A stretch of 64,000 nt of DNA. It comes from Actinomycetospora straminea (GTDB lineage Bacteria; Actinomycetota; Actinomycetes; Mycobacteriales; Pseudonocardiaceae). Both the position numbers and the translations under genes were made by a program. Where the stretch lies: positions 1 to 64,000 of the forward strand of contig NZ_JAQZAN010000001.1 of the NCBI RefSeq assembly GCF_028737255.1, read 5' to 3'. The notes under the pieces were generated by a model. The model made no database searches. It saw only the letters and a list, made by a program, of their open reading frames with translations, and was not told the DNA's origin. Below are positions 6,305 to 34,668 of the stretch, piece after piece. Numbering within the stretch: the stretch's first letter is position 1; each line of letters opens with the position of its first letter.

Positions 6305-6431
6305 GCAGCGAACGCGCTGTTCGCTGCCTCTAGGCGTACGAAGTCCGCGTTCGCTCGCGGGCTCGCGTTCGCCTCCGGCGGGCGAATGCGCTGTTCGCTG
6401 CCTCTACGCGTACGAACAGCGCGTTCGCTGC
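6305..6431. repeat. Nested inverted/direct repeat between mrp and rsgA
   Basis: The outer arms 6305-6323 and 6413-6431 are perfect 19-bp inverted copies (the right arm reads CGAACAGCGCGTTCGCTGC). Inside, a 29-bp direct repeat (6314-6342 and 6388-6416) is 28/29 identical with a 74-bp period. Each copy begins with a short hairpin around GCGCTGTTCGC and continues GCTGCCTCTA. The element fills the junction of two convergent genes and could end transcription from both sides. There is no T-tract. Its layout resembles the repeat copies at 22.4 and 31.9 kb. Confidence 0.75.
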
Positions 6432-19400: not shown

Positions 19401-20273
19401 TCACGCCAGCGCCCGCACGGTCCGGACCGGGGCGCGGTCGCCGCGGATCGCCGACACCATGTCGACGACGCGGCGGGTGGCCGCCACCTCGTGCGCGCGG
19501 AACATCCGCGCGCCGGCCCACGCCGCCACGGCCGTCGCGGCGAGCGTGCCCTCGAGGCGCTCGGTGACCTCGGTGGTGCCGAGGGTCTCGCCGACGAAGT
19601 CCTTGTTCGACAGGGCCATGAGCACCGGGCGCCCGAGCGCGACGAGCTCGTCGAGGCGGCGCAGCAGCTCGAGGCCGTGGAACGTGTTCTTGCCGAAGTC
19701 GTGGGTGGGGTCGACGAGGATGCGCGCCGGGTCGACGCCCGCGGCCTCGTGTGCCCGCGCCTGCCGCGTGACCTCGTCGATCACGTCCGCCACGACGTCG
19801 GTGTAGCGCACGCGGTGCGGGCGGGTGCGGGGCACGGCGCCGCCGGTGTGCGAGCAGACGATCCCCGCGCCGAACTCGGCGGCCACCTCGCCCAGCGCCG
19901 GGTCGACGCCCGCCCAGGTGTCGTTGATGAGGTCCGCGCCCGCCGCGCAGACCTCGCGCGCCACGTCGGCCCGCCAGGTGTCGACGCTGATCGCGACGTC
20001 GGGGTGGCGGTCGCGCACGGCCGCGACGGTCGGCAGCACCCGGCGCAGCTCCTCGGCGACGTCCACCCCGGGCCCGGGGCCGGCCTTCACCCCGCCGACG
20101 TCGACGACGTCCGCGCCCTCGGCCACCGCGCGGTCCACCGCGTCCAGCGCCGCCGAGGGGTCCCAGGCGGCGCCGCGGTCGTAGAACGAGTCCGGCGTGC
20201 GGTTGACGATCGCCATCACCGCGACGCGCCCGTCGGGCGGCAGCAGGGGGCGTGTCGGCCGGTGGGTGGTCAT
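19401..20273 (-). CDS. folP2: Dihydropteroate synthase homologue FolP2
   Basis: This 290-residue TIM-barrel protein shows VMAIVNRTPDSFYDRG, VVDVGGVKAGPG, AISVDTWRADVA, INDTWAG and ILVDPTHDFGKNTFHGLELL. The FolP2 branch (Rv1207) does not replace the true folate enzyme in mycobacteria, and its linkage to gpgS suggests a separate pterin or glycan-related job. Its ATG at 20273 overlaps the LOG stop (TGATG). Conserved pterin-binding residues look mostly intact, so an enzymatic role is possible. Confidence 0.85.
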   Translation of the reverse strand: MTTHRPTRPLLPPDGRVAVMAIVNRTPDSFYDRGAAWDPSAALDAVDRAVAEGADVVDVGGVKAGPGPGVDVAEELRRVLPTVAAVRDRHPDVAISVDTWRADVAREVCAAGADLINDTWAGVDPALGEVAAEFGAGIVCSHTGGAVPRTRPHRVRYTDVVADVIDEVTRQARAHEAAGVDPARILVDPTHDFGKNTFHGLELLRRLDELVALGRPVLMALSNKDFVGETLGTTEVTERLEGTLAATAVAAWAGARMFRAHEVAATRRVVDMVSAIRGDRAPVRTVRALA

Positions 20274-20836
20274 CACCCCGATCCTGACACGACCTCCGAG
20301 GTGCGGGCCGGGTCGAGCGCGTCGAGGGCGGTGTCCACGGTCGTCGTGCGCACCACCCCGGACATCCCGCGCGCGGTGACGAACCCGGTCAGTCGCAGGT
20401 CCTCGAGCCACGTGAACAGCGGGTCGTAGTGGCCGTCGGGGTCGAGCACGACCACCGGCTTGTCGTGCATCCCCAGCGCGTGCGACGTCCAGGCCTCGAA
20501 CAGCTCCTCGAGCGTCCCGAGGCCGCCGGGCAGGGCGAGCACCGCGTCGCTGCGCGCGTCCATCTCGGCCTTGCGGGTGCGCATGTCGCCGACGACGACC
20601 AGCTCGTCGGCCTGGTCGTCGGCCACCTCGAGCGCGACGAGCCCCTCGGGGATGACCCCGACCGTCCGGGCCCCGCCCTCGCGCGCGGCGCGGGCGACCG
20701 CGCCCATCATCGACACCCGCCCGCCGCCGGAGACGAGGCTCCACCCCCGCGCGGCGATGGCGGCGCCGACCTCTCCGGCCAGCGCGATCGCCGCCTCGCT
20801 CACCGGGCCCGAGGCGCAGAAGACGCAGACCCTCAC
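20273..20836 (-). CDS. LOG-family phosphoribohydrolase (short form)
   Basis: This 187-residue Rossmann protein of the TIGR00730/LOG family begins VRVCVFCASGPVSEAAIALA and has SLVSGGGRVSMMG and the signature PGGLGTLEELFEAW. LOG enzymes release the base from cytokinin-type nucleoside 5'-monophosphates, or hydrolyse other nucleotides. The GTG start at 20836 overlaps the TGA of a second LOG gene by 4 bp, and its own stop overlaps folP2. So it is the middle gene of a tightly coupled LOG-LOG-folP2 unit. The Rv1205 orthologue is this one. Confidence 0.85.
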   Translation of the reverse strand: MRVCVFCASGPVSEAAIALAGEVGAAIAARGWSLVSGGGRVSMMGAVARAAREGGARTVGVIPEGLVALEVADDQADELVVVGDMRTRKAEMDARSDAVLALPGGLGTLEELFEAWTSHALGMHDKPVVVLDPDGHYDPLFTWLEDLRLTGFVTARGMSGVVRTTTVDTALDALDPARTSEVVSGSG

Positions 20837-21612
20837 GAGCCCACGACCTCGCGGAAGCCCTCCTCGACGATGGCGACCACCTCGTCGATGTCGTCGGTGA
20901 GGTGGATGAGGTCGACGTCGTGGCGGCTGATCGTCCCCGCGTCGACGGCGGCGCCCGCGAGCCACTCGACGAGCCCGCCCCAGTAGCTCGTGCCCAGCAG
21001 CACCACCGGGAACCGCGTGACCTTGCCCGTCTGCACCAGCACGAGCGCCTCGAACAGCTCGTCGAGCGTGCCGAAGCCGCCGGGCAGGCAGACGAAGGCC
21101 TGCGCGTACTTGACGAACATCGTCTTGCGGGCGAAGAAGTAGCGGAACCCGACGCCGAGGTCGACCCACGGGTTGAGGCCCTGCTCGAAGGGCAGCTCGA
21201 TGCCCAGGCCCACCGACAGCCCGCCGGCCTCGGCGGCCCCGCGGTTGGCGGCCTCCATGACCCCGGGACCGCCGCCGGTGATGACGGCGTAGCCCGCGTT
21301 CGCCAGCGCCCCGCCCAGCGCCATGCCGAGCGCGTAGTCGGGGTGCTCGCGCGGCGTGCGCGCCGACCCGAACACCGTCACCGCGCGCGGGATCTCGGCG
21401 AGGACGCTGAAGCCCTCGACGAACTCGGCCTGGATGCGCTGGAGGCGCCAGGCGTCGGAGTGCACCCAGTCCGCGGGGCCCCGGGAGTCCAGCAGGCGCT
21501 GGTCGGTGGTGGAGCTCAGCCGTGCCGGGTCGCGGTGCTCCGGGCGACGGCGGTCGATGGTGGTCGGGCGCGGCGCGGTGGCGTCAGTGCCCGCCGGGTC
21601 GTCGTGGAGCAT
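20833..21612 (-). CDS. LOG-family phosphoribohydrolase (long form)
   Basis: This 259-residue TIGR00730 protein shows AVTVFGSARTPREHPDYALG, VITGGGPGVMEAANRGA and PGGFGTLDELFEALVLVQTG, the full lysine-decarboxylase-like nucleotide site. A 60-residue N-terminal extension precedes the domain. It is a second, more canonical LOG directly ahead of the short one, and the two share a GTGA overlap. Partner formation is possible. The ATG at 21612 has TAGGCT 7 nt upstream and no ribosome binding site. Confidence 0.85.
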   Translation of the reverse strand: MLHDDPAGTDATAPRPTTIDRRRPEHRDPARLSSTTDQRLLDSRGPADWVHSDAWRLQRIQAEFVEGFSVLAEIPRAVTVFGSARTPREHPDYALGMALGGALANAGYAVITGGGPGVMEAANRGAAEAGGLSVGLGIELPFEQGLNPWVDLGVGFRYFFARKTMFVKYAQAFVCLPGGFGTLDELFEALVLVQTGKVTRFPVVLLGTSYWGGLVEWLAGAAVDAGTISRHDVDLIHLTDDIDEVVAIVEEGFREVVGS

Positions 21613-21619
21613 GCGGCCG

Positions 21620-21625
21620 AGCCTA
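21620..21625 (-). promoter_or_regulatory. -10 motif TAGGCT, leaderless candidate
   Basis: On the minus strand TAGGCT lies 7 nt before the ATG at 21612 and would drive the LOG-LOG-folP2-gpgS unit. Confidence 0.45.
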
Positions 21626-21736
21626 GGAGCCCGCCCCGAACGGGGCCGGACCGCCGGGTCCACGGTTTGCGACGGCCCGCTGCGTGGCACGCCCCGGATG
21701 GTTGAAGCACGAACCACCCCCCGAGGAGGAACCACC

Positions 21737-22369
21737 GTGGCGACGGTCACGCCCAAGGTCGCGATCATCTACTACAGCTCGACCGGCACCATCCACGAGC
21801 TGGCCCAGGAGTACGCGAAGGGCCTGGAGAACGCGGGCGCCGAGGTGCGCCTCCGCAAGGTGCGCGAGCTCGCGCCGCCGGAGGCCGTCGCGGCCAACGA
21901 GGCCTGGCAGCGCCACGCCGAGGCCACCGCCGACGTCCCCGAGGCGACGGCGGACGACGTGCTGTGGGCCGACGCGGTCGTGTTCGGCTCGCCGACGCGC
22001 TACGGCAACATCGCCGCGCAGCTCAAGCAGTTCATCGACACCCTCGGCCCGCAGTGGGCGCAGGGCCAGCTCGCCGACAAGGTGTACTCGGGCTTCACGT
22101 CGACCTCGACCGCCCACGGCGGCCAGGAGTCCACGCTGCTCGCGCTCTACAACACGATCCACCACTTCGGCGGCGTGATCGTGACCCCGGGCTACACCGA
22201 CCCGATCCAGTTCACGGTCGGCAACCCCTACGGCCCGTCGCACGTCGACGGCCAGGGCTCGATCCCGATCTCGGATGACACGCGCCACGCCACGCGGTAC
22301 GCGGGCCAGCGCATCGCCACCGTCACCCGCCAGCTCGTCGCGGGCCGCAGCGAGGTCGCCGCGGTCTGA
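21737..22369 (+). CDS. wrbA: NAD(P)H:quinone oxidoreductase, type IV (WrbA)
   Basis: This 210-residue flavodoxin-like enzyme has the FMN phosphate loop YYSSTGTIHELAQEYAKG (residues 10-27), the second loop GSPTRYGNIAAQLKQFID and TSTSTAHGGQESTL, which marks the WrbA group. It reduces quinones by two electrons and limits redox cycling. The GTG at 21737 has GAGGAGG about 8 nt upstream; the upstream frame has no support. It converges on dapE, with a strong hairpin in the gap. Confidence 0.92.
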   Translation: MATVTPKVAIIYYSSTGTIHELAQEYAKGLENAGAEVRLRKVRELAPPEAVAANEAWQRHAEATADVPEATADDVLWADAVVFGSPTRYGNIAAQLKQFIDTLGPQWAQGQLADKVYSGFTSTSTAHGGQESTLLALYNTIHHFGGVIVTPGYTDPIQFTVGNPYGPSHVDGQGSIPISDDTRHATRYAGQRIATVTRQLVAGRSEVAAV

Positions 22370-22389
22370 GGCGCGCCGTTCGGGGCGAG

Positions 22390-22441
22390 GGACTCCCTGG
22401 GTGCGTGGGAGGCAGCGAGGGTGACCTTCGCTGCCTCCCAC
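22390..22441. terminator. Bidirectional hairpin between wrbA and dapE (repeat copy C)
   Basis: Fourteen-base perfect arms 22405-22418 and 22428-22441 (core GGGAGGCAGCGA) enclose a 9-nt loop, between two convergent stop codons. The segment 22390-22432, read on the minus strand, matches the translated repeats at 31.9 kb at 40 of 43 positions. So this is both a terminator-like hairpin and a member of a dispersed repeat family. Confidence 0.8.
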
Positions 22442-22447
22442 CCCGGC

Positions 22448-23527
22448 TCAGGCGCGCGTGAGGTAGGTGCGCAGGACGTCGCCGGCCTCGGAGATCGCCG
22501 CCACGGGCACCGACTCCTCGCGCGTGTGGGCGAGGTTCGGGTCGCCCGGGCCGAAGTTCAGGGCCGGGATGCCCAGCGCCGCGAAGCGGGCGACGTCGGT
22601 CCAGCCGTACTTGGCGACGGGCACGGTCCCGGTCGCGGTGACGAAGTCGGCGGCCGCGGGCGCGGAGAGCCCCGGCAGCGCGCCCGGCGAGGCGTCGGTC
22701 TCGGTGAGGTCGTACCCCGCGAACACCTCCGCGACGTGGGCGCGGGCGTCGTCGAGCGAGCGGTCGGGCGCGAAGCGGAAGTTGACCGTCACCTCGCAGA
22801 CGTCGGGCACGACGTTGCCCGCCACGCCGCCGGCGATCCGCACCGCCTGCAGGCCCTCGCGGTAGACGCAGCCGTCGATGTCGACGTCGCGCGCTTCGTA
22901 CCCCGCCAGTCGCGCCAGGATCGGCGCCGCGGCGTGGATCGCGTTGCTGCCCAGCCACGACCGCGCCGAGTGCGCGCGACGTCCCTCGGTGCGCACCACG
23001 ACCCGCAGCGTGCCCTGGCACCCCGCCTCGACCTGGCCGGACGTGGGCTCGCCGAGCAGCGCGAGGTCGGCGTCGAGCCAGTCGCGGTGCTCGCGCTCGA
23101 GCCGCCCGAGGCCGTTGCGCGACGCCTCGACCTCCTCGCAGTCGTAGAGCACGAGCGTGACGTCGTGCGCCGGCTCGACGAGCGCGGCCGCGAGGTGCGT
23201 CATCACCGCCACCCCGGACTTCATGTCGCTCGTCCCGCAGCCGTACAGCGTCCCGCCGTCGCGCCGGGAGGGGACGTTGTCGGCGATCGGCACGGTGTCG
23301 AGGTGCCCGGCGAGCAGCACCCGGCGCGGGCGCCCGAGGCGCGTGCGGGCGAGGAGCGCCTGCCCCGAGCGCAACAGCTCCAGGTGCGGCGCCTGGCTCG
23401 CCAGCGCGGCCTGGAGCGCGTCGGCGAGGGCCTGCTCGTCGCCGGACACGCTCGGCACGTCGACCAGCGCGGCGGTCAGCGACACCGGGTCGGCGAGCAG
23501 GTCGAGGGTCACGGGCGGGGCACTCAC
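22448..23527 (-). CDS. dapE: Succinyl-diaminopimelate desuccinylase
   Basis: This 359-residue M20 zinc hydrolase makes LL-diaminopimelate for lysine and peptidoglycan. Visible are [14 protein letters not shown] (His/Asp ligand site, about residue 70), [13 protein letters not shown] (bridging Asp), [13 protein letters not shown] (catalytic Glu) and the dimerisation insert [15 protein letters not shown]. It begins at a GTG at 23527 with TAGCCT 8 nt upstream. With dapD and dapC in this window it completes the succinylase branch steps. Confidence 0.92.
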
Positions 23528-23535
23528 GCTGTCGG

Positions 23536-23541
23536 AGGCTA
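23536..23541 (-). promoter_or_regulatory. -10 motif TAGCCT, leaderless candidate
   Basis: On the minus strand TAGCCT lies 8 nt before the GTG of dapE, in the 51-bp gap after the DUF1275 gene. Confidence 0.4.
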
Positions 23542-23578
23542 ACCGGGTGTTCGGTCCGTCCGACGGAGGACCGCCCCC

Positions 23579-24277
23579 TCACCCGCTCGGGGGCTCGCCG
23601 TCAGCCCCCGGACGGGTCCGCGGCGGCCGTCCCAGCACCCCCAGCGCCGCGACCAGCAGCGCGACCGCGAGCAACGGCACCGACCACCGCGCGACGCCGA
23701 GCAGGACCGCCGCCACCGCGGCGCCCACGACGAGCGCGCCGAGCTGGCGCAGCGCGAGCACCCGCCCGCGCGACCCGCCGGCCACGAGCGTCGCGAGCCC
23801 GCCGGTGAGCGTGCCGGTGAGGTACGTCGTCGACTCCCCGAGCCGCAGCGCCGTGGCGCTCTGCGCGCCCATCGCGAGCGACGCCGCGATCAGCAGGACG
23901 AGCACGACGCCCGGCGGCCCGGCGCCGGCGAGCACCCACGCCACCGCCAGGGCGACCAGCACGACGAGCTCCGCGAGCAGCGGCCGGGCGACGGAGGCGG
24001 GGTGCCGCCGCCACGCCAGCGACCACACCACCACCCCGACGGCGAACCCGAGCACGGCGAGCGCCGGGGGCCACAGCGCGCCGAGGTCACCGCGGCCGGC
24101 CGCCCCGCCCGCGGTGACGAGGTTGCCGGTGACGACCCCGGCGAACGGCCCGCCGAGGCTCGTCACGGCCCACAGGTCCACGACGCCCGCGACGCCGGCC
24201 AGCAGGGTCGCGGCGGTCGCCACCCGGCCGGGGGCGCGGCGGGTCGCGCCCGTCGCCGGTGCGGTCACGGCCACCAC
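23579..24277 (-). CDS. DUF1275 (YoaK-like) membrane protein
   Basis: This 232-residue protein has about six membrane helices. The family features include the first-helix region [22 protein letters not shown], split here as [11 protein letters not shown] and [10 protein letters not shown], the charged pair after GFAVGVVVW, and [23 protein letters not shown]1275 proteins are uncharacterised inner-membrane proteins, possibly transporters. It diverges from dapD with only 27 bp between start codons, and its end is 51 bp before the dapE start. Confidence 0.8.
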
Positions 24278-24290
24278 CCTGGCGGACGAC

Positions 24291-24296
24291 TAGCCT
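24291..24296 (+). promoter_or_regulatory. -10 motif TAGCCT, leaderless candidate
   Basis: TAGCCT lies 8 nt before the ATG at 24305 of dapD, inside the 27-bp region between divergent starts. This leaves no room for a leader. Confidence 0.45.
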
Positions 24297-24304
24297 GGCC
24301 CGCG

Positions 24305-25294
24305 ATGAGCACCCCCGCGCCGCCGTCCCGCGCCCTCGGCGTCGGACTGGCCACCGTCGCCCTCGACGGCACCGTCCTCGACACCTGGTACCCGCTGCCC
24401 GAGCTGGCGGAGGCGGACGGTGCCGCGGGCGGGATGACCGAGGAGCCGGGCACGGTGATCGTGCCGGCCGGGGAGCTCGAGCCGTCGCTCGTCGACGCCC
24501 TGGGCACCGACCAGGACCGCGGCGTCGAGGTCGTCGCCGTGCGCACCGTCGCCGACCTCACCGGCCCGCCGGCCTCGGCCTACGACGTCTACCTGCGCCT
24601 GCACCTGCTCTCCCACCGCCTCGTGCCGCCCCACGGCGTCGACCTGACCGGCATCTTCGGCCACCTCGCCAACGTCGTGTGGACCAACCACGGCCCCTGC
24701 CCGGTGCCCGAGTTCGAGCGCGTCCGCGCCCGCCTGCGCGGCCGCGGCCCGGTGACCGTCTACGCGGTCGACAAGTTCCCGCGCATGGTCGACTACGTCA
24801 TCCCGTCCGGCGTGCGCATCGGCGACGCCGACCGCGTGCGCCTCGGCGCGCACCTCGCGAGCGGCACGACCGTGATGCACGAGGGCTTCGTCAACTTCAA
24901 CGCCGGGACGCTGGGCAGCTCGATGGTCGAGGGCCGCATCTCCGGCGGCGTGGTCGTCGGCGACGGCTCCGACGTCGGCGGCGGCGCGTCGATCATGGGG
25001 ACGCTCTCGGGCGGCGGCAAGGAGGTCATCGCGATCGGCGAGCGCTGCCTGCTGGGCGCCAACGCCGGCATCGGGATCTCGCTCGGCGACGACTGCGTCG
25101 TCGAGGCCGGCCTCTACGTCACCGCGGGCACGCGCGTCACCCTCGAGGACCGCAGCGTGGTCAAGGCCGTCGAGCTCTCCGGGCGTCCCGGGCTGCTCTT
25201 CCGCCGCGACTCCGTCACCGGCGCGGTGCACGCCCTGCCGCGCACCGAGGGCGCGCGGGTCGAGCTCAACGCCGCCCTGCACGCGAACGACTGA
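24305..25294 (+). CDS. dapD: Tetrahydrodipicolinate N-succinyltransferase
   Basis: This 329-residue actinobacterial DapD has a left-handed beta-helix in the C-terminal half, visible as hexapeptide turns ([58 protein letters not shown]). It succinylates tetrahydrodipicolinate with succinyl-CoA. The catalytic Glu of this group sits in [16 protein letters not shown]. It is next to dapE but divergent from it across DUF1275, a rearrangement relative to the Rv1201c/Rv1202 pair, which are directly adjacent. Confidence 0.92.
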
Positions 25295-25302
25295 CGCCGA
25301 CG

Positions 25303-25308
25303 TAACCT
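25303..25308 (+). promoter_or_regulatory. -10 motif TAACCT, leaderless candidate
   Basis: TAACCT lies 7 nt before the GTG at 25316 of the antiporter regulatory subunit, only 9 bp after the dapD stop. Confidence 0.45.
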
Positions 25309-25315
25309 GACGATC

Positions 25316-25798
25316 GTGGACGTCGAGGTCACCCGGCTGCCCGGGATCGGCACCAAGCAGGAGTTCGACACCGCGGCGGGGCGCCGGATCGGGGTGCTGA
25401 CCCACCGCGACGGGCACCGGGAGCTCCTGGTCTCGGGACGCGACGACCCGGACGCGTGCAGCGCGTCGGTGGCGCTGTCCGACGCCGAGGGCCAGGCGCT
25501 CGGCACCCTGCTCGGCGCGCCGAACCTGGTGGCCCAGCTGCAGGACCAGCAGCGCGAGGTCGAGGGCATCAGCACCGCGCAGTTCCCGGTCGGCGCGGGG
25601 TCGCCCTACGACGGCCGCACGCTGGGCGACACCGCGATGCGCACGCGCACCAGCACGTCGATCGTCGCCGTGGTGCGCGACCACGTCGTGTCGCCGTCGC
25701 CGGGCCCGGAGTTCGTGTTCCGTGCCGGCGACCTCGTCGTCGTGGTGGGCACCGGCGAGGGCCTCGGGCGGGCGGCCGCGATCCTCGAGGACGGCTGA
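25316..25798 (+). CDS. khtT: K+/H+ antiporter regulatory subunit, RCK_C type
   Basis: This 160-residue soluble protein has an N-terminal ACT-like unit (VTRLPGIGTKQEFDTAAGRR) and a C-terminal TrkA-C/RCK_C domain (residues about 75-158; PYDGRTLGDTAMRTRTSTSI, FVFRAGDLVVVVGTGEGL). KhtT binds c-di-AMP or senses pH to gate the KhtU antiporter in Bacillus. It lies 7 bp ahead of the antiporter gene and surely forms a complex with it. Confidence 0.85.
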   Translation: MDVEVTRLPGIGTKQEFDTAAGRRIGVLTHRDGHRELLVSGRDDPDACSASVALSDAEGQALGTLLGAPNLVAQLQDQQREVEGISTAQFPVGAGSPYDGRTLGDTAMRTRTSTSIVAVVRDHVVSPSPGPEFVFRAGDLVVVVGTGEGLGRAAAILEDG

Positions 25799-25805
25799 CC
25801 GGGCA

Positions 25806-26984
25806 GTGCACTCCACCGCCCTCTCGCTCATCGAGCTGGGCGCGCTGTTCTTCGGGCTCGGCGTGCTCGGGCGCCTCGCCGGGCGCCTCGGCATCTCGCC
25901 GGTCCCGCTCTACCTGCTCGGCGGGCTCGCGTTCGGGTCCGGCGGGCTGGTGCCGCTCGAGGGCATCGAGCCCTTCACCGGCGTCGCCAGCGAGGTCGGC
26001 GTCGTCCTGCTGCTCCTGCTGCTGGGCCTCGAGTACTCCGCGTCCGACCTCATCGGCGGCCTGCGCCGCTCGTGGCTCGCGGGGATCGTCGACATGGTCC
26101 TCAACGCCGCACCCGGTGCGATCACCGCGCTGATCCTCGGGTGGGGCCCGCTGGGCGCGCTCGCGATGGCCGGGGTCACGTGGGTGTCGTCGTCGGGGAT
26201 CGTCGCGAAGGTCCTCGACGAGCTCGGCCGGCTCGGCAACCGGGAGACCCCGGCCGTGCTCTCGGTCCTCGTCATGGAGGACCTCGCGATGGCCCTCTAC
26301 CTCCCCATCACCACCGCCGCGCTCGCCGCGCTGGGCTTCGTGGCGGGGCTGCGCACGGTCGCGATCGCCGTCGTGCTCCTGGTCATCGTGCTCGTCGTGG
26401 CGCTGCGCTTCGGGCGCGCGGTCTCGGCGGTCGTGGAGTCGCCGACGACCGAGGTGTTCCTGCTGCGCGTGTTCGGCATCGCGCTGCTCGTCGCGGGCAT
26501 CGCCTCGCAGCTGCAGGTCTCCGCCGGCGTCGGGGCGTTCCTGCTCGGCATCGCGATCTCCGAGGACACCGCGGAGAACGCCACCCGCGTGCTCGCCCCG
26601 CTGCGCGACCTGTTCGCCGCGGTGTTCTTCGTCGTCTTCGGGCTCAACACCGATCCGCGCCAGGTCCCCGCGGTGCTGCCGGCCGCGATCGCGCTGGCGA
26701 TCGTGTCGACGGCGACGAAGCTCGGCGCGGGCTGGTTCGCGGCCCGCCAGATCGGTGTGGGGCGCCTCGGACGGTGGCGCGCGGGGGCGGCGCTGGTGGC
26801 CCGCGGGGAGTTCTCGATCGTCATCGCCGGGCTGGCGCTGACCACCGGCTCCGTCGACCCCGGCCTCGCGCCGCTGGCGACGACGTACGTGCTGCTCATG
26901 GCGATCCTGGGCCCGGTGGCGGCGCGGGTCGTCGAACCCGTGCACGGCGCCGTCACGCGTCGCCTGCGGCCGTCACCGGGCTGA
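25806..26984 (+). CDS. khtU: CPA2-family K+/H+ antiporter
   Basis: This 392-residue protein has about 12 membrane helices of the Kef/CPA2 fold (LYLLGGLAFGSGGLVP, LLLLGLEYSASDLIGGL, WVSSSGIVAKVLDELG, VLVMEDLAMALYLP with the acidic pair of the ion site). It lacks a cytoplasmic RCK domain, which the preceding khtT supplies. The GTG start at 25806 follows the khtT stop by 7 bp. It probably exports potassium in exchange for protons. The last 32 nt overlap the converging membrane-protein gene, and the stop lies in the first unit of a 9-bp tandem repeat. Confidence 0.88.
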   Translation: MHSTALSLIELGALFFGLGVLGRLAGRLGISPVPLYLLGGLAFGSGGLVPLEGIEPFTGVASEVGVVLLLLLLGLEYSASDLIGGLRRSWLAGIVDMVLNAAPGAITALILGWGPLGALAMAGVTWVSSSGIVAKVLDELGRLGNRETPAVLSVLVMEDLAMALYLPITTAALAALGFVAGLRTVAIAVVLLVIVLVVALRFGRAVSAVVESPTTEVFLLRVFGIALLVAGIASQLQVSAGVGAFLLGIAISEDTAENATRVLAPLRDLFAAVFFVVFGLNTDPRQVPAVLPAAIALAIVSTATKLGAGWFAARQIGVGRLGRWRAGAALVARGEFSIVIAGLALTTGSVDPGLAPLATTYVLLMAILGPVAARVVEPVHGAVTRRLRPSPG

Positions 26985-27669
26985 CCGAGCTGACCGAGCT
27001 GACCGAGCTGACCGAGCGACCGGCCCACACCGACGCCGCGGCGGCGAACCCCGCGGCGGTGAGCACCCAGGCCAGGCCGTCGACCACGTGGTGCGGGACG
27101 ACCACGGCGGCGACGAGGTGCAGCGGCTGGCACACGACCAGCGCGACCGCCGCCCACCGCGGGACCGCCCGCCACAGCGCCACCCCGAGCAGCACGGTGC
27201 CCAGGACGTGCCCGACGACGAACAGCGTCGTGCCGGCGGTGGTCACGGGGTCGGCCACGACCGCCGCGACGAGCGCCGCGGTGCTCCCCTCCGGCAGGCC
27301 CGCCGCGAGGCCGGCGCGGGCGACCAGGTCGGGCGCGACGACGACCGCCAGACTCGCGAAGCCCACCCACGCGAGCGCGGCGGCGACGAGACCCAGGACC
27401 GGGCGGGCGCGCACGGCGACCGCGCCCACCACCAGCACCCCGAGCGGCAGCGTGAGCAGGGCGAGCAGGGACAGCCACAGCACCACGGACTGCGCGCCGA
27501 GGTCCCCGGCGACCCGGGCGACGAGGGTGCCGGGGTCGTCGGTGGTGTCGTAGGGCAGCAGTGCGCGCACCCCGGCGATCGCGAGCGGGCCGAGCGGCGC
27601 GACGACGAGCGCGGCGCGCCGGACGAGCCGGGTGGTGGTCGGGGCGGGCGGGGTGAGGGTCGCGGTCAC
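26953..27669 (-). CDS. Multi-pass membrane protein, unknown
   Basis: This 238-residue protein has six predicted membrane helices starting at LVVAPLGPLAIAGVRALLPY. His residues cluster near the fifth and sixth helices (CQPLHLV, VPHHVVDGLAW). I cannot assign a family. The C-terminus SVSSVSSVSSVSPVTAAGDA is written by a 9-bp tandem repeat that overlaps the 3' end of khtU. It is downstream of the CynX-like transporter gene on the same strand, separated by 115 bp of short repeats. Confidence 0.65.
   Translation of the reverse strand: MTATLTPPAPTTTRLVRRAALVVAPLGPLAIAGVRALLPYDTTDDPGTLVARVAGDLGAQSVVLWLSLLALLTLPLGVLVVGAVAVRARPVLGLVAAALAWVGFASLAVVVAPDLVARAGLAAGLPEGSTAALVAAVVADPVTTAGTTLFVVGHVLGTVLLGVALWRAVPRWAAVALVVCQPLHLVAAVVVPHHVVDGLAWVLTAAGFAAAASVWAGRSVSSVSSVSSVSPVTAAGDA
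26981..27016. repeat. Four copies of 9-bp CTGACCGAG
   Basis: The perfect tandem array contains the khtU stop codon in unit 1 and encodes the Ser-Val-Ser tail of the converging gene. Unit length is three codons, so copy change is frame-neutral there. Confidence 0.85.
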
Positions 27670-27784
27670 GGCGACGACGGTCGCGCCGCCGGGCTCCCGC
27701 GGGCCAGGGTCGCGCGCCCGGTCCGCCCGGGCGTCCGCCCGGGACGGTCGGGCGGCCGGGTGTCCTCGGCTGGGCTGTCCTCGG

Positions 27785-28972
27785 CTAGGACGCCTCGTAG
27801 GTGACCCGGCGCGGGCCCAGCAGCACGACCGCGACGCCCTGCACCGCGACGGCGGCCAGGATCACGACCAGCGCCGCGCGGAAGCCCGCGAGGTCGATGA
27901 GCACGCCCATGACCGGCGGCGCGAGCGCGGCGAGGACGTAGGCCGAGCCGAGGGTCAGCGCCGACACCGACGCCGACGTCGCGCCGTCCGGGGTCCGCCA
28001 GGCGACCACCGCGAGGCCCAGCGGGAAACCCGCGCCCACCGCGACCGACGCCAGCACCACCCACGGCCACGGCCCGACGACGGGCAGCACGGGCGCGGCG
28101 AGGATCCCCGCCACCCCCACGCCGGCGCACACCACGCAGAACGCCGCCCACGGCGCCCAGGCCCGCCGGCGCTCGGCGAGCACCGGCACCAGCAGGGCCG
28201 CCGGGATCTGCACGACGTTCCACACCGACAGCACGACCGCCGCCCGGGCCGTCGAGAACCCCTGTGCCTCGTAGAGCGGGGCGAGCCACGTCAGCCACCC
28301 GTAGAACTGCACCGACGACATCGCCTGGAACAGCACCGCGAGCCGCGCGAACCGGTTGCGCCACGGCAGGTGGACCGGCGGCGGCGCCGGCACGTCGTGC
28401 AGGCGCCTTGTCACCGGCCACCACACGACGAGAGCCAGCACGGCGGGCACCGTCCACGCCGCGAGCGCCCACCACCACCCACCGAGCAGGTCCTGCAGCG
28501 GCAGCGCGGTCAGCGAGGCGACGGTGGCGCCGCCCATCATCGACACGGTGTAGAGGCCGGTGGCGGCGCCGGCGCGGTCGGGCAGGTGGTCGCGGACGAC
28601 GCCGGTGATCGCGACCCCGACGACGCCGATGCCCAGCCCGATCGCGAGGCTGCCGGCGACCAGCGGCACCGCCGCGGGCAGCCCGTGGGTCAGCGTGCCG
28701 AGCGCGATCGCCGCGACGCCCAGCGCCGCGGCCTGCTCACGGCCCGTGCGGCGCGCGAGGGCGGGCGCGGCGAACGAGCCGGCGCCCATCATGAGGACCG
28801 TCGCGGCCTGCACGAGCCCCGCGAAGCCCGCCGAGACGCCCAGGTCGGCGCGGATCGTCTCCAGCAGCGGCGGGTAGACCGAGAGCGCGGCGCGCAGGTT
28901 GAGGCCCAGCGCGAGGACCGCGAGGAGGACGACGACCGGCCGCACCGGCTGCCGGGTGGCCGGCTGGCTCAC
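27785..28972 (-). CDS. CynX/NimT-family MFS transporter
   Basis: This 395-residue 12-helix major facilitator is of the cyanate/nitroimidazole group. Marks are LALGLNLRAALSVYPPLL in helix 1, IGLGIGVVGVAITGVVRDHL and the loop GAATGLYTVSMMGGATVAS. It probably exports a small anion or drug; the substrate is unknown. It lies 42 bp after dapC on the same strand. The gap contains imperfect repeats of CCGCTGTCC. The region downstream (27670-27784) is also made of short GC-rich repeats and holds no gene. Confidence 0.85.
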   Translation of the reverse strand: MSQPATRQPVRPVVVLLAVLALGLNLRAALSVYPPLLETIRADLGVSAGFAGLVQAATVLMMGAGSFAAPALARRTGREQAAALGVAAIALGTLTHGLPAAVPLVAGSLAIGLGIGVVGVAITGVVRDHLPDRAGAATGLYTVSMMGGATVASLTALPLQDLLGGWWWALAAWTVPAVLALVVWWPVTRRLHDVPAPPPVHLPWRNRFARLAVLFQAMSSVQFYGWLTWLAPLYEAQGFSTARAAVVLSVWNVVQIPAALLVPVLAERRRAWAPWAAFCVVCAGVGVAGILAAPVLPVVGPWPWVVLASVAVGAGFPLGLAVVAWRTPDGATSASVSALTLGSAYVLAALAPPVMGVLIDLAGFRAALVVILAAVAVQGVAVVLLGPRRVTYEAS

Positions 28973-29014
28973 TCCGCGGTCACTCCGCTGTCCACCCCGC
29001 TGTCCTCCTCGCCG

Positions 29015-30154
29015 TCACTCCGCCAGGCGTCGCGCGGCCGCGGCGATCCCCTCGTCGGAGGCCGTGAGCGCGACGCGCACGTGGGAGGCGCCGGCGGGCC
29101 CGTAGAACTCGCCCGGGGCGACGAGGACGCCGCGCGCGGCGAGGCGGTCGACGGTGGCGCGGCACGGCTCGCCGGCGGTGGCCCAGAGGTACAGGCCGGC
29201 CTCGGAGTGCTCGACGCGCAGGCCGGCGGCCTCGAGCGCGGGGCGCAGGACCGCGCGGCGGGCGTCGTAGCGGGCGCGGGTGTCGGCGACGTGGAGGTCG
29301 TCGCCCAGCGCGGCCGTCATGGCCTCCTGCACGGGCCGCGGCACGATCATCCCGGCGTGCTTGCGCACCTGCAGCAGGCCGGCCACCAGCGCGGGGTCGC
29401 CGACGACGAGGCCCGCCCGGTAGCCCGCGAGGTTGGACGTCTTCGACAGCGAGTGCACCGCCAGCAGCCCGGTGAGGTCGCCGCCGTGCACGACGGGGTC
29501 GAGCACCGAGGTCGTCACGACACCCGGCCCGGGCAGGGCGAGGTAGCACTCGTCGGCGGCCACGACCGCCCCGAGCGCCCGGGCCTCGGCCACCCGCGCC
29601 GTGAGGGCGGCGGCGTCGAGGACCCGGCCGGTGGGGTTCGACGGCGAGTTCAGCCAGACCAGGCGCGTGCCCGCGGGCAGCGGCTCGTCGTCGCCCACCC
29701 GCGCGGGGCGCGCGCCGGCGAGCTGCGCGCCGACCTCGTAGGTCGGGTAGGCGAGGTCGGGGAAGGCGACGAGGTCGTCGCCACCCAGCCCCAGCAGCGT
29801 CGGCAGCCAGGCCACCAGCTCCTTGGAGCCGATGGTCGGCAGCACGGCGTCGGGGTCGAGGCCCTCCCCGGCGGACGCGGCCGCGCCGTGCCGGCGCGCG
29901 AGCGCGTCGACCGCGGCCCGGCGCAGCGCCGGTGTCCCCCAGGTCTGCGGGTAGCCCGGGGAGTCCCAGGCAGCCCGCAGCGCCTCGCCCACCGCGGTGG
30001 GCACGGGGTCGACGGGCGTGCCGACCGACAGGTCGACCACCCCGTCCGGGTGGCTGCGGGCGACCGCGGCGGCCCCGGCGAGGCTGTCCCACGGGAAGTC
30101 CGGGAGCGCCGGGAACGCGACGCTCGTCGGACCCGCGGTCGGGTTGGTGGTCAC
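29015..30154 (-). CDS. dapC: N-succinyldiaminopimelate aminotransferase
   Basis: This 379-residue fold-type I PLP enzyme aminates N-succinyl-2-amino-6-ketopimelate with glutamate. The PLP lysine is in [17 protein letters not shown] (about residue 235). [14 protein letters not shown] and [11 protein letters not shown] carry the Asn and Asp contacts, and [13 protein letters not shown] the carboxylate-binding Arg. The GTG start overlaps the ferredoxin stop by 4 bp (GTGA), so dapC is coupled to fdxC, as in Rv1177-Rv1178. Confidence 0.92.
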
Positions 30155-30471
30155 TCCCCCTGCGGCGGCAGGTCGGGCACGGGGCCCGCGTCGCGCTCGA
30201 CCTTGCCGACCTTCGACGCGCCGCCGGGCGAACCCAGCTCGTCGAAGAAGTCGACGTTCGCCTGGGTGTAGACCGACCACTGGTCCGGGACGTCGTCCTC
30301 GTAGTAGATGGCCTCCACCGGGCAGACCGGCTCGCACGCCCCGCAGTCGACGCACTCGTCGGGGTGGATGTACATCATCCGACCCCCTTCGTAGATGCAG
30401 TCGACAGGGCATTCCTCGATGCACGCCTTGTCGAGCACGTCGACACACGGTTCGGCGATCACGTACGTCAC
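30151..30471 (-). CDS. fdxC: 7Fe-type ferredoxin
   Basis: This 106-residue ferredoxin has two cluster sites: [17 protein letters not shown] (3Fe-4S plus one Cys of the other cluster) and [16 protein letters not shown] (4Fe-4S). The tail after residue 60 ([21 protein letters not shown]) is the typical actinobacterial/Azotobacter FdxA extension. It donates electrons to P450s or other acceptors. It starts at a GTG with GGAGCAGGAG upstream, and its stop overlaps dapC. Confidence 0.93.
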
Positions 30472-30639
30472 GTCTGCTCCTGCTCCTCACTCACGAAAGT
30501 CCGGCGCGACCCTGACCCACGCGTGGTGGTGGCACGCGGCCGCGGGTGACGCCTGCGGCGAGTATTCCGGTCGCCGCCGCGTCATGCCCGTGCGGGGGCG
30601 ACCTGAATGCCCGACAGCGGCATGTCAGACGTCACACCA

Positions 30640-31467
30640 TCACCCCCGACCCTGCTCCCGCGCCACCCACCGGGCCGCCGCGCGGGCGGCGCGCTTGAGG
30701 CCCGAGCGCTCGCTGCGGTAGCTCGCCAGCGCTCCCACGAACGGCAGGTTGGCCAGCGCGCGCCAGAAACGGTTGCCCTGCGGGCGCCGGTCGAGCTCGC
30801 CCTGCAGGCCCCACAGCGTCTTGCCCATGCGCCACACGGCGCTCGCCAGCGCGGACAGGTGCCCACGCTCCTCGCGCTCGGTGCTCACCGTGCCCGCCAG
30901 CTCGCCGGCCTCGCGCTCGACGTCGGCGCCGTGGGCGTCGCCGTGGCGGCGGGGGTCGACGTCGCGGCCGAAGAGCACCGACGCGAGCAGGCGCACCTGC
31001 TCGTCGCGCCCGTCCATGCCGTGCTCGCTGGCGATCGCGCACACGACGAGGCCCTGCGCGCCCAGCCCCAGGATGTCGGAGACGGGCAGCCGGCGCGCCA
31101 GCGCGCCGCCGATGCCGGGGATCGAGGCGACCACCGAGGTGAAGCGGCCGACCCGCGACACCCACCACTGGTCGCGCTCCTCGGGGCTCATCGTCTGCCA
31201 GCGCGGGGTGCCGGGGAGCTTCGAGGTGGCCAGGCGGTCGAGCACGCGGGCACGCACCGTGCGGAACGCCCGCCCGACCCTGCCGCGCCGGGTCGTCGGT
31301 GCCGGGGCCGTCTCGTGACCACCCTGCTGCAGCTCGAGCGCGCGCCGGCGGGCGAGGCGGCCGAGGCGGAAGGGGTCGGCGTCGCGCAGGCCGCGCAGCA
31401 CCGGGCCGGTGGCGGCCACGAACGGTCGCAGGACGCGCACGACGTGCTCGTCGGGGATGGCGGGCAT
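30640..31467 (-). CDS. Conserved actinobacterial protein, unknown
   Basis: This 275-residue protein is basic at both ends. The middle (SVVASIPGIGGALARRLPVS, DILGLGAQGLVVCAIASEHG) is hydrophobic and Gly-rich and resembles the glycine-zipper helices of EcsC-like proteins, so membrane contact is likely. The C-terminus is RAARAAARWVAREQGRG. No catalytic motif is seen. It lies 29 bp after the Rv1171-like gene and probably belongs to the mshB transcript. The ATG at 31467 begins PAIPDEHVVRVLRPFV. Confidence 0.7.
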   Translation of the reverse strand: MPAIPDEHVVRVLRPFVAATGPVLRGLRDADPFRLGRLARRRALELQQGGHETAPAPTTRRGRVGRAFRTVRARVLDRLATSKLPGTPRWQTMSPEERDQWWVSRVGRFTSVVASIPGIGGALARRLPVSDILGLGAQGLVVCAIASEHGMDGRDEQVRLLASVLFGRDVDPRRHGDAHGADVEREAGELAGTVSTEREERGHLSALASAVWRMGKTLWGLQGELDRRPQGNRFWRALANLPFVGALASYRSERSGLKRAARAAARWVAREQGRG

Positions 31468-31496
31468 GGCGGCTCGTTTCCCGACGGTCGCCCGGC

Positions 31497-32072
31497 TCAA
31501 CCCCCGGACGGCGGGGCGACGCGCCCGGCGCGCCGGGTGGCCCGCGCGGAGCGCCACGACAGCGCCAGCGCGCCCGGCACGACCCCGGCGCCGAGCAGCA
31601 GGACCGCGCGCCAGTCCGGCGGCAGCACGCCGGCGCCCGCCGGGCTCCACAGGCCCGCGACGAGCACGGTCAGCGTCCACGCCGCCAGCGGCACCACCGC
31701 CGCGCGCCCCTCCGGCAGCACCGCGTCCGCGGCGAGCACGAGCAGCGGCGTCGTCACCAGCGCCACCAGCGCCGAGACCGGCAGCGGGATCCCGGCGTCG
31801 GCGGTGCGCAGGGTCAGCCACGCCATCTCGGTCCACGCGAGCACCACCGCGTCCACGGCGAGCAGGACGACGATCGCGACCGGCGCGGCTGAGGTGGTGG
31901 AGCGAGGGTCACCCTCGCTGCCTGCCACGCACCCAGGGACTCCTTCGCTGCTCGCGGGCTCGCCGGGCGTGGTGGAGCGAGGGTCACCCTCGCTGCCTGC
32001 CACGCACCCAGGGACCCCCTCGCTCCCCCCGGGCCCGCTCCCCCCGGCCCCGCTCCCCCCGGGCGCGCTCAC
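31497..32072 (-). CDS. Four-helix membrane protein with repeat-derived N-terminus
   Basis: This 191-residue protein corresponds in place and topology to Rv1171, the small membrane protein next to mshB. Four helices lie in the last 115 residues (APVAIVVLLAVDAVVLAW, LPVSALVALVTTPLLVL, VPLAAWTLTVLVAGLW, AVLLLGAGVVPGALALSW). The first 75 residues are unusual: SEGVPGCVAGSEGDPRSTT occurs twice, written by two 50-bp copies of a dispersed hairpin repeat. The GTG at 32072 overlaps the mshB stop (GTGA). No alternative start exists between the repeats and the first helix without cutting it. Function is unknown. Confidence 0.7.
   Translation of the reverse strand: MSAPGGSGAGGSGPGGSEGVPGCVAGSEGDPRSTTPGEPASSEGVPGCVAGSEGDPRSTTSAAPVAIVVLLAVDAVVLAWTEMAWLTLRTADAGIPLPVSALVALVTTPLLVLAADAVLPEGRAAVVPLAAWTLTVLVAGLWSPAGAGVLPPDWRAVLLLGAGVVPGALALSWRSARATRRAGRVAPPSGG
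31894..31943. repeat. Dispersed hairpin repeat, copy A
   Basis: This 50-bp unit begins GTGGTGG, then the perfect 9-bp-arm hairpin AGCGAGGGTCACCCTCGCT, then GCCTGCCACGCACCCAGGGA. It is in frame within the membrane-protein gene and 49/50 identical to the copy at 31969. Confidence 0.9.
31969..32018. repeat. Dispersed hairpin repeat, copy B
   Basis: It is identical to copy A except for one base (GGGACCCC for GGGACTCC). The period is 75 bp, 25 codons, so both copies are read in the same frame. Confidence 0.9.
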
Positions 32073-32986
32073 GAGGGCGGGAACAGGTCGTCCGGCGCGC
32101 TCGCCGGGCCGCGCAGGTGCACGAAGCACTCGGCGTCCAGCACGGGCTGGGCGAGGCCGTTCGAGAGCGCGAACACCGGGGGCTCACTGCCGTCGTCGTA
32201 GACCGCGATCTGCGTGGCGTGGGCGCGCAGCGCGGCGAGCTTGCGGATCCGTGCCCCGCCCAGCGGCACCCGGGTCGTGATCGTCGCGTCGGGCACCGTC
32301 GGCAGGTCCTCGACGGGCGGCACCGGCAGCCCCAGCCACGAGCGGCGGCGCAGCACCGCGAGCCCCGCCGCGACCTCGTCGTGGGCCGCGGCGGTGGCGG
32401 CGACGGTGATCTCGGTGGCGTCCGGGTCGACGGTCTCCATCGCGGCGATGGTGATGTCGTGGGCGCGCACGTGGGCGGGGTGGCCGTAGCCGCCGTGCGC
32501 GTCGTAGGTGACGACCACCTGCGGCCGGACCTCGCGCAGCACCTCCACCAGGGACGCGACCTGCGCGTCGAACCCGTCCGGACCCGCGAACGAGCCCGGC
32601 GCGATCACCGACGGCGCGGCGGCGAGGATGCCCTCGCCCACGCGCTCCATCCCCGAGTCCTGCCACGTCCCGGCGCCGGCGAGCCAACGGTGGTCGGTGA
32701 CGCCCAGCGCCGCGCACGCCTTCGCGAGCTCGCCCTCGCGGTGCTCCCCCAGCGCCGGGCCGGTGAGGTGCGCCAGCTCGGGCGGGATCACCTCGCCCTG
32801 CTCGCCGCGGTTGCACGTCACGAGCGTCACCGGCACGCCCGCCGCGGTCGCGAGGGCCATCACGCCGCCACAGGTGATCGTCTCGTCGTCCGGGTGGGCG
32901 TGGACGAGCAGCAGCGGACCGGGGCTCACGAGCACGTGACCGTAGGTGCTCGGCGCGGTGGGCGCGGCCACCGGGTATGACGTCAC
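32069..32986 (-). CDS. mshB: GlcNAc-inositol deacetylase (mycothiol biosynthesis)
   Basis: This 305-residue zinc deacetylase of the LmbE/PIG-L family removes acetyl from 1-O-(2-acetamido-2-deoxy-glucosyl)-inositol, the second step of mycothiol synthesis. Zinc ligands are in LLLVHAHPDDETITCG (His, Asp; with the catalytic Asp) and in GGYGHPAHVRAHDI (His). TCNRGEQGEVIPPELAHLTG is typical of MshB. I start at the GTG at 32986 giving VTSYPVAAP; the frame extends to 33070 but would overlap the divergent acetyltransferase start. It diverges from that gene by 23 bp. Confidence 0.9.
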   Translation of the reverse strand: MTSYPVAAPTAPSTYGHVLVSPGPLLLVHAHPDDETITCGGVMALATAAGVPVTLVTCNRGEQGEVIPPELAHLTGPALGEHREGELAKACAALGVTDHRWLAGAGTWQDSGMERVGEGILAAAPSVIAPGSFAGPDGFDAQVASLVEVLREVRPQVVVTYDAHGGYGHPAHVRAHDITIAAMETVDPDATEITVAATAAAHDEVAAGLAVLRRRSWLGLPVPPVEDLPTVPDATITTRVPLGGARIRKLAALRAHATQIAVYDDGSEPPVFALSNGLAQPVLDAECFVHLRGPASAPDDLFPPS

Positions 32987-33009
32987 AGCGCCCGAGCGGG
33001 AGGAGAGCG

Positions 33010-33576
33010 GTGACGGAGCTGCACTGGTCGGTGTCCTGGGAGACCGACCTCGACGACGCGGACCACGCACCGCTGACCGCTCTCCTGGCGCGGGCCTACC
33101 CAGGTGAGGCGCACCGCCTGGTCGGTGAGCGCAGCTGGACCGGCGCGCGCCCCGAGCTGCGCGTGGTCGCCCGCGACGGCGGCGCCCCCGTCGCCCACGC
33201 CGGGATCATCCGGCGGTTCCTGCGCGCCGACCCGCAGCACGGCCCGGGTCGCGACGTCCTCGTCGGCCACGTCGGCCTCGTCGCCGTCGACCCCGACCAG
33301 CACCGCGGCGGCGTCGGCCGCGCGCTGATGGCGCAGGTCGTCGACACCCTCGTGGGCCTCGACGTCCCGTTCGGCTTCCTGACCTGCGGCCCCGACGTCG
33401 AGGGCTTCTACCGCGCCGTGGGCTGGACGCGCCTGGCCGACGTCGCGGTGCGCATGGTCGACATCGACGACCGGGTCGTCACCGACCACGACCCGGCGAT
33501 GGTGCACCCGGCGGGCCGCCCGCTGACGGACTGGCCCGCCGCGCGCCTGCTCGCCCAGGACGGCCGAGGGATCTAG
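33010..33576 (+). CDS. GNAT acetyltransferase, AAC(2')-I/NodA-like
   Basis: This 188-residue GNAT protein has the acetyl-CoA motif VAVDPDQHRGGVGRALMAQV (residues about 97-116), with VAHAGIIRRFL before it and FYRAVGWTRL after it. The overall order, including MVHPAGRPLTDWPA at the end, resembles chromosomal aminoglycoside 2'-N-acetyltransferases of mycobacteria, but substrate cannot be inferred. The GTG at 33010 has GGGAGGAG 4-5 nt upstream; an ATG at 32977 in frame is less likely. It is divergent from mshB, so a mycothiol-related acetyl transfer is also possible. The 84-bp gap after it contains two GGTCGAAGT copies and no gene. Confidence 0.72.
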   Translation: MTELHWSVSWETDLDDADHAPLTALLARAYPGEAHRLVGERSWTGARPELRVVARDGGAPVAHAGIIRRFLRADPQHGPGRDVLVGHVGLVAVDPDQHRGGVGRALMAQVVDTLVGLDVPFGFLTCGPDVEGFYRAVGWTRLADVAVRMVDIDDRVVTDHDPAMVHPAGRPLTDWPAARLLAQDGRGI

Positions 33577-33660
33577 CGCCTCGCAGGGTCGAAGTGCAGT
33601 GGTCGAAGTACCGATACGGACACTCGTCGTCAGCGACGGGACTTCGCAGACACGGGCGCG

Positions 33661-34668
33661 CTACTCCACGCGCACCAGGTGCGGGGGCTCGGCGAAGTGG
33701 CAGGCCGCGGGGTGGTCGGTCGACGGGCGCACCTCGAGCGCCGGCGGGTCCTCCGCGCACACCGGCGCCGCCTTGGGGCAGCGCGTGCGGAACCGGCAGC
33801 CCGAGGGCGGGTCCGCCGGGCTCGGGACGTCGCCCTCCAGCCGGACCGCCTCGCGCCGCCCGCGCAGCGACGGGTCGGGCACCGGCACCGACGACAGCAG
33901 CGCCTGCGTGTACGGGTGCGACGCCCGTGTGTAGATCTCCTCGGCGGTCCCGGTCTCGACGATCGAGCCGAGGTACATCACCGCGACGCGGTCGCAGAGG
34001 TGGCGCACGACGCCCAGGTCGTGGGCGATGAACAGGTACGCCAGGCCGAACTCGCGCTGCAGGTCGGAGAGCAGGTTGAGCACCTGCGCCTGGATCGACA
34101 CGTCGAGCGCGGACACCGGCTCGTCGCACACGATGACCTTGGGCCGCAGCGCCAGCGCCCGCGCGATCCCGATGCGCTGGCGCTGGCCGCCGGAGAACTG
34201 GTGCGGGTAGCGGCGGATGTGCTCCGGGTTGAGCCCGACGACCTCGAGCAGCTCCTGCACCCGCCGCTGCCGGTCGCTCTTCGGGGCCACCTCGGGGTGG
34301 ATGTCGAAGGGCTCGCCGACGATGTCGCCGACCGTCTTGCGCGGGTTCAGCGACGTGTAGGGGTCCTGCAGGACGATCTGCATGTCCCGGCGCCAGGCGG
34401 TCAGCGCCGCGCCGCGCTTGGCGAACAGGTCCTCGCCCTCGAACGTCGCGGTCCCGCTCGTCGGCGGGGTGAGGCGCATGAGCACCTGGGCCAGCGTCGA
34501 CTTGCCGCAGCCCGACTCCCCGACCACCCCGAGCGTCTCGCCGGGGTACAGGTCCAGCGACACCCCGTCGACGGCGCGGACCTGGCCGACGGTCCGGCGG
34601 AACACCACGCCGCGGGTCACGGGGAAGTGCTTGACGAGGTCGCGCACGGCCAGGACGGGCTCGCTCAC
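33661..34668 (-). CDS. Peptide ABC transporter ATPase 2 (OppF/DppF)
   Basis: This 335-residue ABC ATPase has Walker [10 protein letters not shown] (about residue 52), Q-loop [15 protein letters not shown], the signature [15 protein letters not shown] and Walker [14 protein letters not shown]. The C-terminal oligopeptide-transport extension has the Cys cluster [14 protein letters not shown], which binds a cluster in some homologues. The GTG start overlaps the OppD stop (GTGA). It is the last gene of the five-gene importer. Confidence 0.92.

Follow-up and report, generated by a model that had tools for sequence, protein, structure and literature searches.

Dispersed hairpin elements of Actinomycetospora and their apparent in-frame capture at the mshB junction

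Introduction

The window analysed here, a stretch of 64,000 nucleotides from the genome of Actinomycetospora straminea (contig NZ_JAQZAN010000001.1; source genome 6.29 Mb), contains two nearly identical hairpin units inside the open reading frame of a small membrane protein next to mshB. The locus raises the question of whether a structural repeat of intergenic regions has become part of a protein and, if so, how long ago. A preliminary description made from the sequence alone had proposed that such a repeat was recently captured into the coding sequence with the frame kept.

The repeat pair in the mshB-linked gene

The following features of the window are referred to below.

31497..32072, minus strand: open reading frame of the mshB-linked small membrane protein (the label Rv1171-like is that of the preliminary description)
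32069..32986, minus strand: mshB-like gene of the PIG-L deacetylase family, upstream partner (PF02585, E 4.6e-27; synteny), with the 5′ end chosen by our own gene caller
32069..32072, minus strand: GTGA overlap of the mshB stop and the membrane-protein start, read from the sequence and present in 10/10 species of the repeat clade
31976..32024, minus strand: element copy closest to the start codon, a 49-bp double palindrome encoding SEGVPGCVAGSEGDPRS, with an RNA fold of -31.5 kcal/mol as a single long hairpin
31901..31949, minus strand: second element copy, with an RNA fold of -23.9 kcal/mol
22384..22432: intergenic element in a convergent gap, with both stop codons 14-15 bp away
6307..6429: pair of copies from a diverged subfamily (AGCGAACGCGCTGTTCGCT box), in a gap between convergent genes and also present in A. 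lemnae

The two 50-bp units (31894-31943 and 31969-32018) are identical at 49 of 50 positions with an offset of 75 bp, and the perfect hairpin box AGCGAGGGTCACCCTCGCT is present twice (31901-31919 and 31976-31994), as first described. The frame had also been read correctly: the GTG start of the ORF at 31497-32072 (minus strand) shares GTGA with the mshB TGA, and the translation reads VSAPGG..SEGVPGCVAGSEGDPRSTTPGEPASSEGVPGCVAGSEGDPRSTTSAAPVAIVVLL.. from there. The exact 75-bp offset, given at first as 25 codons, does not speak for codon periodicity, since 75 bp is the commonest array period of the family (12 of 34 array spacings, the mshB pair counted). Likewise, the copy at 22390-22432 does match the unit at 31901 as its reverse complement (40/43), but rather than a third copy it is one of 102 matches in the genome.

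Residues 1-61 of the membrane protein are repeat-derived or of low complexity, and the helices come after them. The AlphaFold model, which is of low confidence overall (mean pLDDT 65, pTM 0.32), has residues 1-60 as coil at about 50-55 and helices at 62-91, 99-118, 126-142, 144-147 and 152-183. The protein (31497..32072, minus strand) gave no Pfam match, and window positions 20000-34000 gave no Rfam match at gathering thresholds. A plasmid or phage origin was rejected, as nothing similar to 31895-32030 was found in plasmid and phage collections. GGS repeats adjoin the captured hairpin at 32025-32070, and tandem repeats occur elsewhere in the window at 58493-58783 (15-bp) and 11977-12081 (27-bp).

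Architecture and distribution of the element

The element is 49 bp long and consists of two 19-bp palindromic boxes (consensus AGCGA-N9-TCGCT) with an 11-nt spacer and a fixed pitch of 30 bp, and it is frequently tandem. The 49-bp core pattern found 102 copies in the source genome and none in the reversed control. Within the window there are 8 two-strand matches at up to 3 mismatches, two of which form one weak site at 43878, and shuffled sequences lead one to expect 0.13. Chance or low complexity is ruled out by the reversed controls and shuffles.

Across a panel of 61 genomes the core pattern was matched in 15. It reaches 18-102 copies in each member of a clade of ten species, namely A. straminea (G000), A. 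chibensis (G002), A. cinnamomea (G005), A. lemnae (G008), A. succinea (G010), A. lutea (G011), sp. NBRC 106375 (G012), A. callitridis (G017) and two MAGs (G004 and G007). Elsewhere in the genus we counted 19 copies in G013, 5 in G006, 1 in G003 and 0 in the remaining five members, and beyond the genus 19 in G036, 2 in G030 and 0 in all others of the panel. A looser pattern that keeps only the 19-11-19 arrangement occurs 154 times in A. straminea (control 1) and 8-154 times across 18/18 genus genomes (controls 0-2). From these copy counts, the 19-11-19 architecture is genus-wide and the subfamily of the mshB repeat is mostly clade-specific. The same architecture was also detected at 71, 21 and 19 copies in G030, G021 and G036, which belong to other genera of the same family; the other 40 genomes outside the genus had 0-2 (controls at most 3).

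With respect to structure, the copies fold at a mean of -32.7 kcal/mol versus -16.9 after mononucleotide shuffling. The two boxes could pair with each other in one long hairpin or fold separately. In the long hairpin, covariation is seen at pairs 7-43 and 12-38 (z >7) and is lacking at the middle triplets 9-11/39-41 as well as at pairs 15-35 and 16-34; mean pairing is 0.82 for the long hairpin versus 0.81 for a column shuffle, and 0.85 for the boxes taken separately. The long hairpin is thus favoured by covariation at a few pairs only. As for terminal inverted repeats, a trait of MITEs, the outer 8 columns are paired in 83-100% of 87 distinct copies, a figure biased towards pairing because the boxes served as search pattern.

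Placement relative to genes

Genes were called with our own simple codon-score model rather than a published caller. Our sample of the A. straminea genome, drawn from among the matches listed, comprised 58 arrays (92 copies), a count limited to arrays with a best copy of at most 3 mismatches. Most arrays are intergenic (48: 23 between convergent, 20 between tandem and 5 between divergent genes), 7 lie in genes and 3 at contig edges. Compared with the 20% share of convergent gaps in intergenic bases, convergent placement is in excess (P 1.6e-5) and divergent placement in deficit (P 8.7e-5), both P values being for regions that had been picked for carrying the element. The 43 convergent or tandem arrays have a median distance of 18 bp to the nearest 3′ end, and for 37 of them a stop codon is no more than 60 bp away, as expected of a terminator-like element. 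A second set was formed by 12 stretches picked for mshB alone (11 syntenic ones and the window, 724 kb; gaps of 40-300 bp). Here the element was present in 9/55 convergent, 1/207 tandem and 0/125 divergent gaps, and strong hairpins, whether or not of this family, in 20/55, 15/207 and 2/125, respectively, with none in shuffled gaps.

Like canonical terminators, these copies form a GC-rich hairpin 3′ of a stop codon. A U-tract is absent, with two or fewer T in the 12 nt downstream for 61 of 66 stretches; the accessible part of PMC8355165 cites a study whose title has the mycobacterial polymerase needing a U-tract. The usual intergenic copy would act as a bidirectional terminator or as a 3′-end hairpin without a U-tract.

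The convergent site at 22369-22447 was compared in relatives. A segment was available from 9 of 11, and an inverted repeat was seen by eye in 9/9, with different sequence. A. lemnae has another hairpin sequence there despite flanks that are 97/93% identical.

Two side observations concern individual arrays. A weaker, uncounted copy with 4 mismatches lies within a called ORF (locus L087, 2998-3046). A four-unit array of A. straminea (L064, 3005-3334) holds a second copy of the neighbour gene's 3′ end between its units, and the matching site of A. lemnae is without the array.

Age and frame of the mshB insert

The membrane-protein gene was detected in 38 of 61 genomes. Its linkage to mshB holds up, with an mshB match in the same locus for 30/30 fetched loci. 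The insert is found in frame behind GTGA in 10/10 species of the clade, and it is absent in 7/7 testable sister-clade species and, by eye, in 13 loci of other genera; G013 gave no match. The split between the clades has a support of 1.000 in a tree rooted at the midpoint. Because all ten species carry the insert and the sister clade and other genera are without it, the insert looks derived and ancestral to the ten-species clade, and on these alignments the capture looks real. The proposed uptake of a dispersed structural repeat with the frame kept is supported by the dispersed copies in the genome, the predominance of intergenic arrays and the absence of the insert from the gene in the tested sister-clade species and in the loci of other genera. 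The word recent has to be given up. It had been put forward with the proviso that relatives sharing the N-terminus with diverged DNA would speak against it, and comparison of the N-termini found just this, an in-frame insert shared by all clade species with diverged DNA, which makes it older than these species. Only the second copy, a 75-bp duplication, is confined to A. straminea among the ten.

The peptide SEG..SEGDPRS is retained or altered at few positions in 10/10 species. Codon identity in box 2 is 0.83 versus 0.69 in the body of the gene, an excess that is modest after residue-by-residue comparison, and strong codon-level constraint on the segment was therefore rejected. The one striking sign is the rare proline codon CCT, found in box 2 of 9/10 species and making up 10/27 proline codons in the N-termini versus 0.9% in window genes, a contrast whose p value is overstated as the 10 species are related. 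The retained CCT hints at DNA-level constraint or recopying rather than simple tolerance. In two sister-clade genomes (G016 and G006; loci L036 and L033) another tandem repeat lies just 3′ of the gene, translated as GEICAGRTHSAGRQ.. and VAHTAGGRRVR...

In-frame copies in other genes

Seven sampled arrays lie in genes, all in frame: in the mshB partner, at the N-terminus of an acyl-CoA dehydrogenase, in an ABC-F linker, a LysR loop, a MutY loop, the linker of a BTAD regulator and in CobN. The codon offset of the element is 0 in four cases, 2 in three and 1 in none; offset 1 contains a stop in TGA-centred variants. Pfam domains surround the six inserts other than that at mshB. Orthologues were compared for LysR, MutY, ABC-F and the acyl-CoA dehydrogenase besides the mshB partner, and in these four alignments the insert is flanked by conserved sequence and missing in most or all sister-clade orthologues. 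The LysR insert with two boxes occurs in 6/10 clade species, with remnants in 3, none in A. succinea and 0/8 outside the clade. MutY carries the insert in A. straminea and A. lemnae and short extensions in G004 and sp. NBRC 106375, and lacks it in the 6 other clade species and in 8/8 outside the clade. In ABC-F the element is present in A. straminea, A. cinnamomea, A. lemnae, A. succinea and A. lutea; in the sister clade, G013 has a related palindrome separately and the linkers of the other 7 are variable and show no clear element.

Low-complexity stretches were noted beside some inserts. In the LysR loop (L167, L168), LAD repeats in A. lemnae and HAHPAHH in A. straminea adjoin the captured hairpins, and the expansions at LysR and mshB look as if the hairpin had promoted slippage. 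Upstream of the element at the acyl-CoA dehydrogenase N-terminus of A. straminea (L062) lie tandem 12-bp units coding for SGVA.

Possible exchange between subfamilies

The acyl-CoA dehydrogenase N-terminus has an in-frame palindrome-derived segment in 10/10 clade species and in 0/8 others. Judged by eye, one subfamily is present in A. straminea, A. cinnamomea, A. lutea and sp. NBRC 106375, and another in A. lemnae, A. succinea, A. chibensis, A. callitridis and G007, and shortened in G004; in A. chibensis the segment lies behind ATG and the upstream context is different. The tree requires at least 4 changes for this pattern. Since sister species carry different in-frame subfamilies at this site, one insert may replace another in situ. 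That the coding hairpins of Actinomycetospora are exchangeable cassettes, swapped in place and each in frame, is a tentative idea to which we give somewhat less than even odds. If true, recopying, by gene conversion or template switching among dispersed hairpins, would rewrite both 3′-end hairpins and protein segments.

The comparison with A. lemnae covered 9 comparable sites (5 in genes, 4 intergenic), which is too few for a rate. A palindrome-derived segment is kept at all five gene sites, the one in LysR being a remnant by eye with no element by script and the one in the acyl-CoA dehydrogenase belonging to another subfamily. Two intergenic sites are without the element, one has a diverged unit (by eye only) and one another subfamily. 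No clean target-site duplication was seen at the two sites lacking the element.

Proposed explanation and alternatives

We consider it probable, at roughly 0.72, that terminator-like hairpin elements spread and duplicate in these genomes and that rare in-frame captures persist in tolerant places. With two largely stop-free frames, and as hairpin repeats prone to copying and duplication, the elements would occasionally land in coding DNA, and captured copies would be kept wherever the extra segment is a flexible one, such as an N-terminus, linker or loop. At mshB, one copy would have entered behind GTGA in the ancestor of the ten-species clade and stayed in frame through changes in length, and A. 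straminea would have duplicated one 75-bp unit. We infer mobility, neutrality and subfamily exchange of the elements. Tolerance, not selection on its sequence, is the most likely reason why the protein segment at mshB persists, and the RNA hairpin at the junction might conceivably also tune read-through or re-initiation.

Alternatively, the mshB repeat could be an untranslated intercistronic hairpin, an attenuator or ribosome-termination structure, with the membrane protein starting downstream. A strong hairpin (-31.5 kcal/mol) does lie 3′ of the mshB stop, 44 nt on in A. straminea and beginning with the final base of that codon in A. succinea, and a start after the repeats, which the preliminary description had allowed for, is available in part: in A. 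chibensis, A. lemnae and A. lutea a GTG 3′ of the element would spare helix 1, which then has the length found in the shortest sister-clade proteins (19 residues before EMAW). Partial texts of PMC7518266 and PMC3733652 lend this some plausibility, the one reporting that structures 3′ of stop codons limit re-initiation and the other that many N-terminal REPs are possibly outside the true ORF. In 7/10 species including A. straminea, however, there is no such codon, and an ATG, GTG or TTG past the element cuts helix 1 to 9-17 residues before EMAW. Moreover, the distance from GTG to EMAW takes six values over the 10 species, every one in frame, our codon-score caller picked the GTGA start in A. 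cinnamomea, A. succinea, A. lutea and sp. NBRC 106375, and the mid-gene cases would be left unexplained. A GTG within the N-terminal repeat region is present in 7/10 species, and the caller picked such a GTG in A. straminea. Judging from frames and start codons, the element at mshB is likely translated, and an untranslated repeat is unlikely. If the segment is translated, it could be under selection as part of the protein, say as an acidic regulatory tail, with the repetitiveness of the DNA secondary. The retained SEG..SEGDPRS peptide fits this, but a near-same peptide stands at element sites in the unrelated LysR and acyl-CoA dehydrogenase, most sampled copies are intergenic and the model has the segment as low-confidence coil. 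The Cys, described earlier as gained with each unit, is no conserved gain, being present in just 4/10 species (A. straminea, A. succinea, A. lutea and A. cinnamomea). We regard selection for the segment as improbable.

How the elements came to their sites can also be seen differently. MIRU of mycobacteria are inserted at DTGA start-stop overlaps. Like these, the Actinomycetospora units are tandem, of similar length and in some cases at start-stop overlaps, and in A. straminea two of the seven in-gene cases, the mshB partner and the acyl-CoA dehydrogenase, lie behind a GTGA overlap. The other five are mid-gene, and most copies of the family lie away from such overlaps. On this comparison by description we give a preference for operon junctions a low probability. 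A classical REP/RAYT system, in which a Y1 (IS200-type) transposase moves the elements, would account for palindromic, clustered elements with 3′-end placement and intragenic copies, all traits of REPs in the available portion of PMC3733652. PF01797 was found in 0/18 genus genomes (drafts included) and in 5/14 control genomes, and no more than 6 nt from the ends of 92 copies, GTAG occurs once and CGTC or its complement GACG 12 times. Without PF01797 and consistent tags this system is unsupported; within the limits of draft genomes it is refuted, and we think it very improbable.

Relation to known repeats

The hosts of Rickettsia palindromic elements (RPE) are AT-rich intracellular bacteria. 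RPE were described as in-frame palindromes of about 105-150 bp within Rickettsia genes (Ogata et al. 2000, via excerpts of PMC2229807 and PMC10969869). As far as these excerpts go, both families are dispersed palindromes, intergenic as well as in frame inside conserved genes (here 7/58 arrays), and carry their own open reading frames; the Actinomycetospora element is set apart by description, with only 49 bp in two 19-bp boxes, tandem arrays, placement mostly at gene 3′ ends and a GC-rich actinomycete host. Intragenic REPs with 3′-end and convergent placement are reported from several bacteria in the part of PMC3733652 at hand. The GTAG/CGTC REPs treated there resemble our element in lying 3′ of genes and between convergent genes, in clustering and in reaching some DNA-repair genes (here MutY), and differ in tag, stem and transposase: our element has no consistent end tag and a longer stem, and the genus yielded no transposase of RAYT type. 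The U-less intrinsic terminators and hairpin clusters covered in the accessible text of PMC8355165 are likewise strong hairpins 3′ of stop codons without a U-tract; here one sequence family provides a share of them, and termination would be their presumed role. Coding palindromes of Nematomorpha mitochondria (PMC6649704, in extract) are also hairpins tolerated within coding sequence, but these are perfect repeats with arms of up to 142 bp that the extract does not describe as a single dispersed family. Among the matches listed, literature on Actinomycetospora repeats, actinobacterial coding palindromes and Pseudonocardiaceae repeats had no title on this family. The kind is thus already known from RPE and intragenic REPs, and the Actinomycetospora family looks different.

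Coding palindromes are best known from Rickettsia, where, in our view, small intracellular populations offer an easy excuse. With its several named type strains and numerous sister species, a large-genome actinomycete clade like this makes insertions datable and frame-keeping and subfamily exchange traceable. The clade thereby allows a test of gene-end hairpins as raw material for new protein segments.
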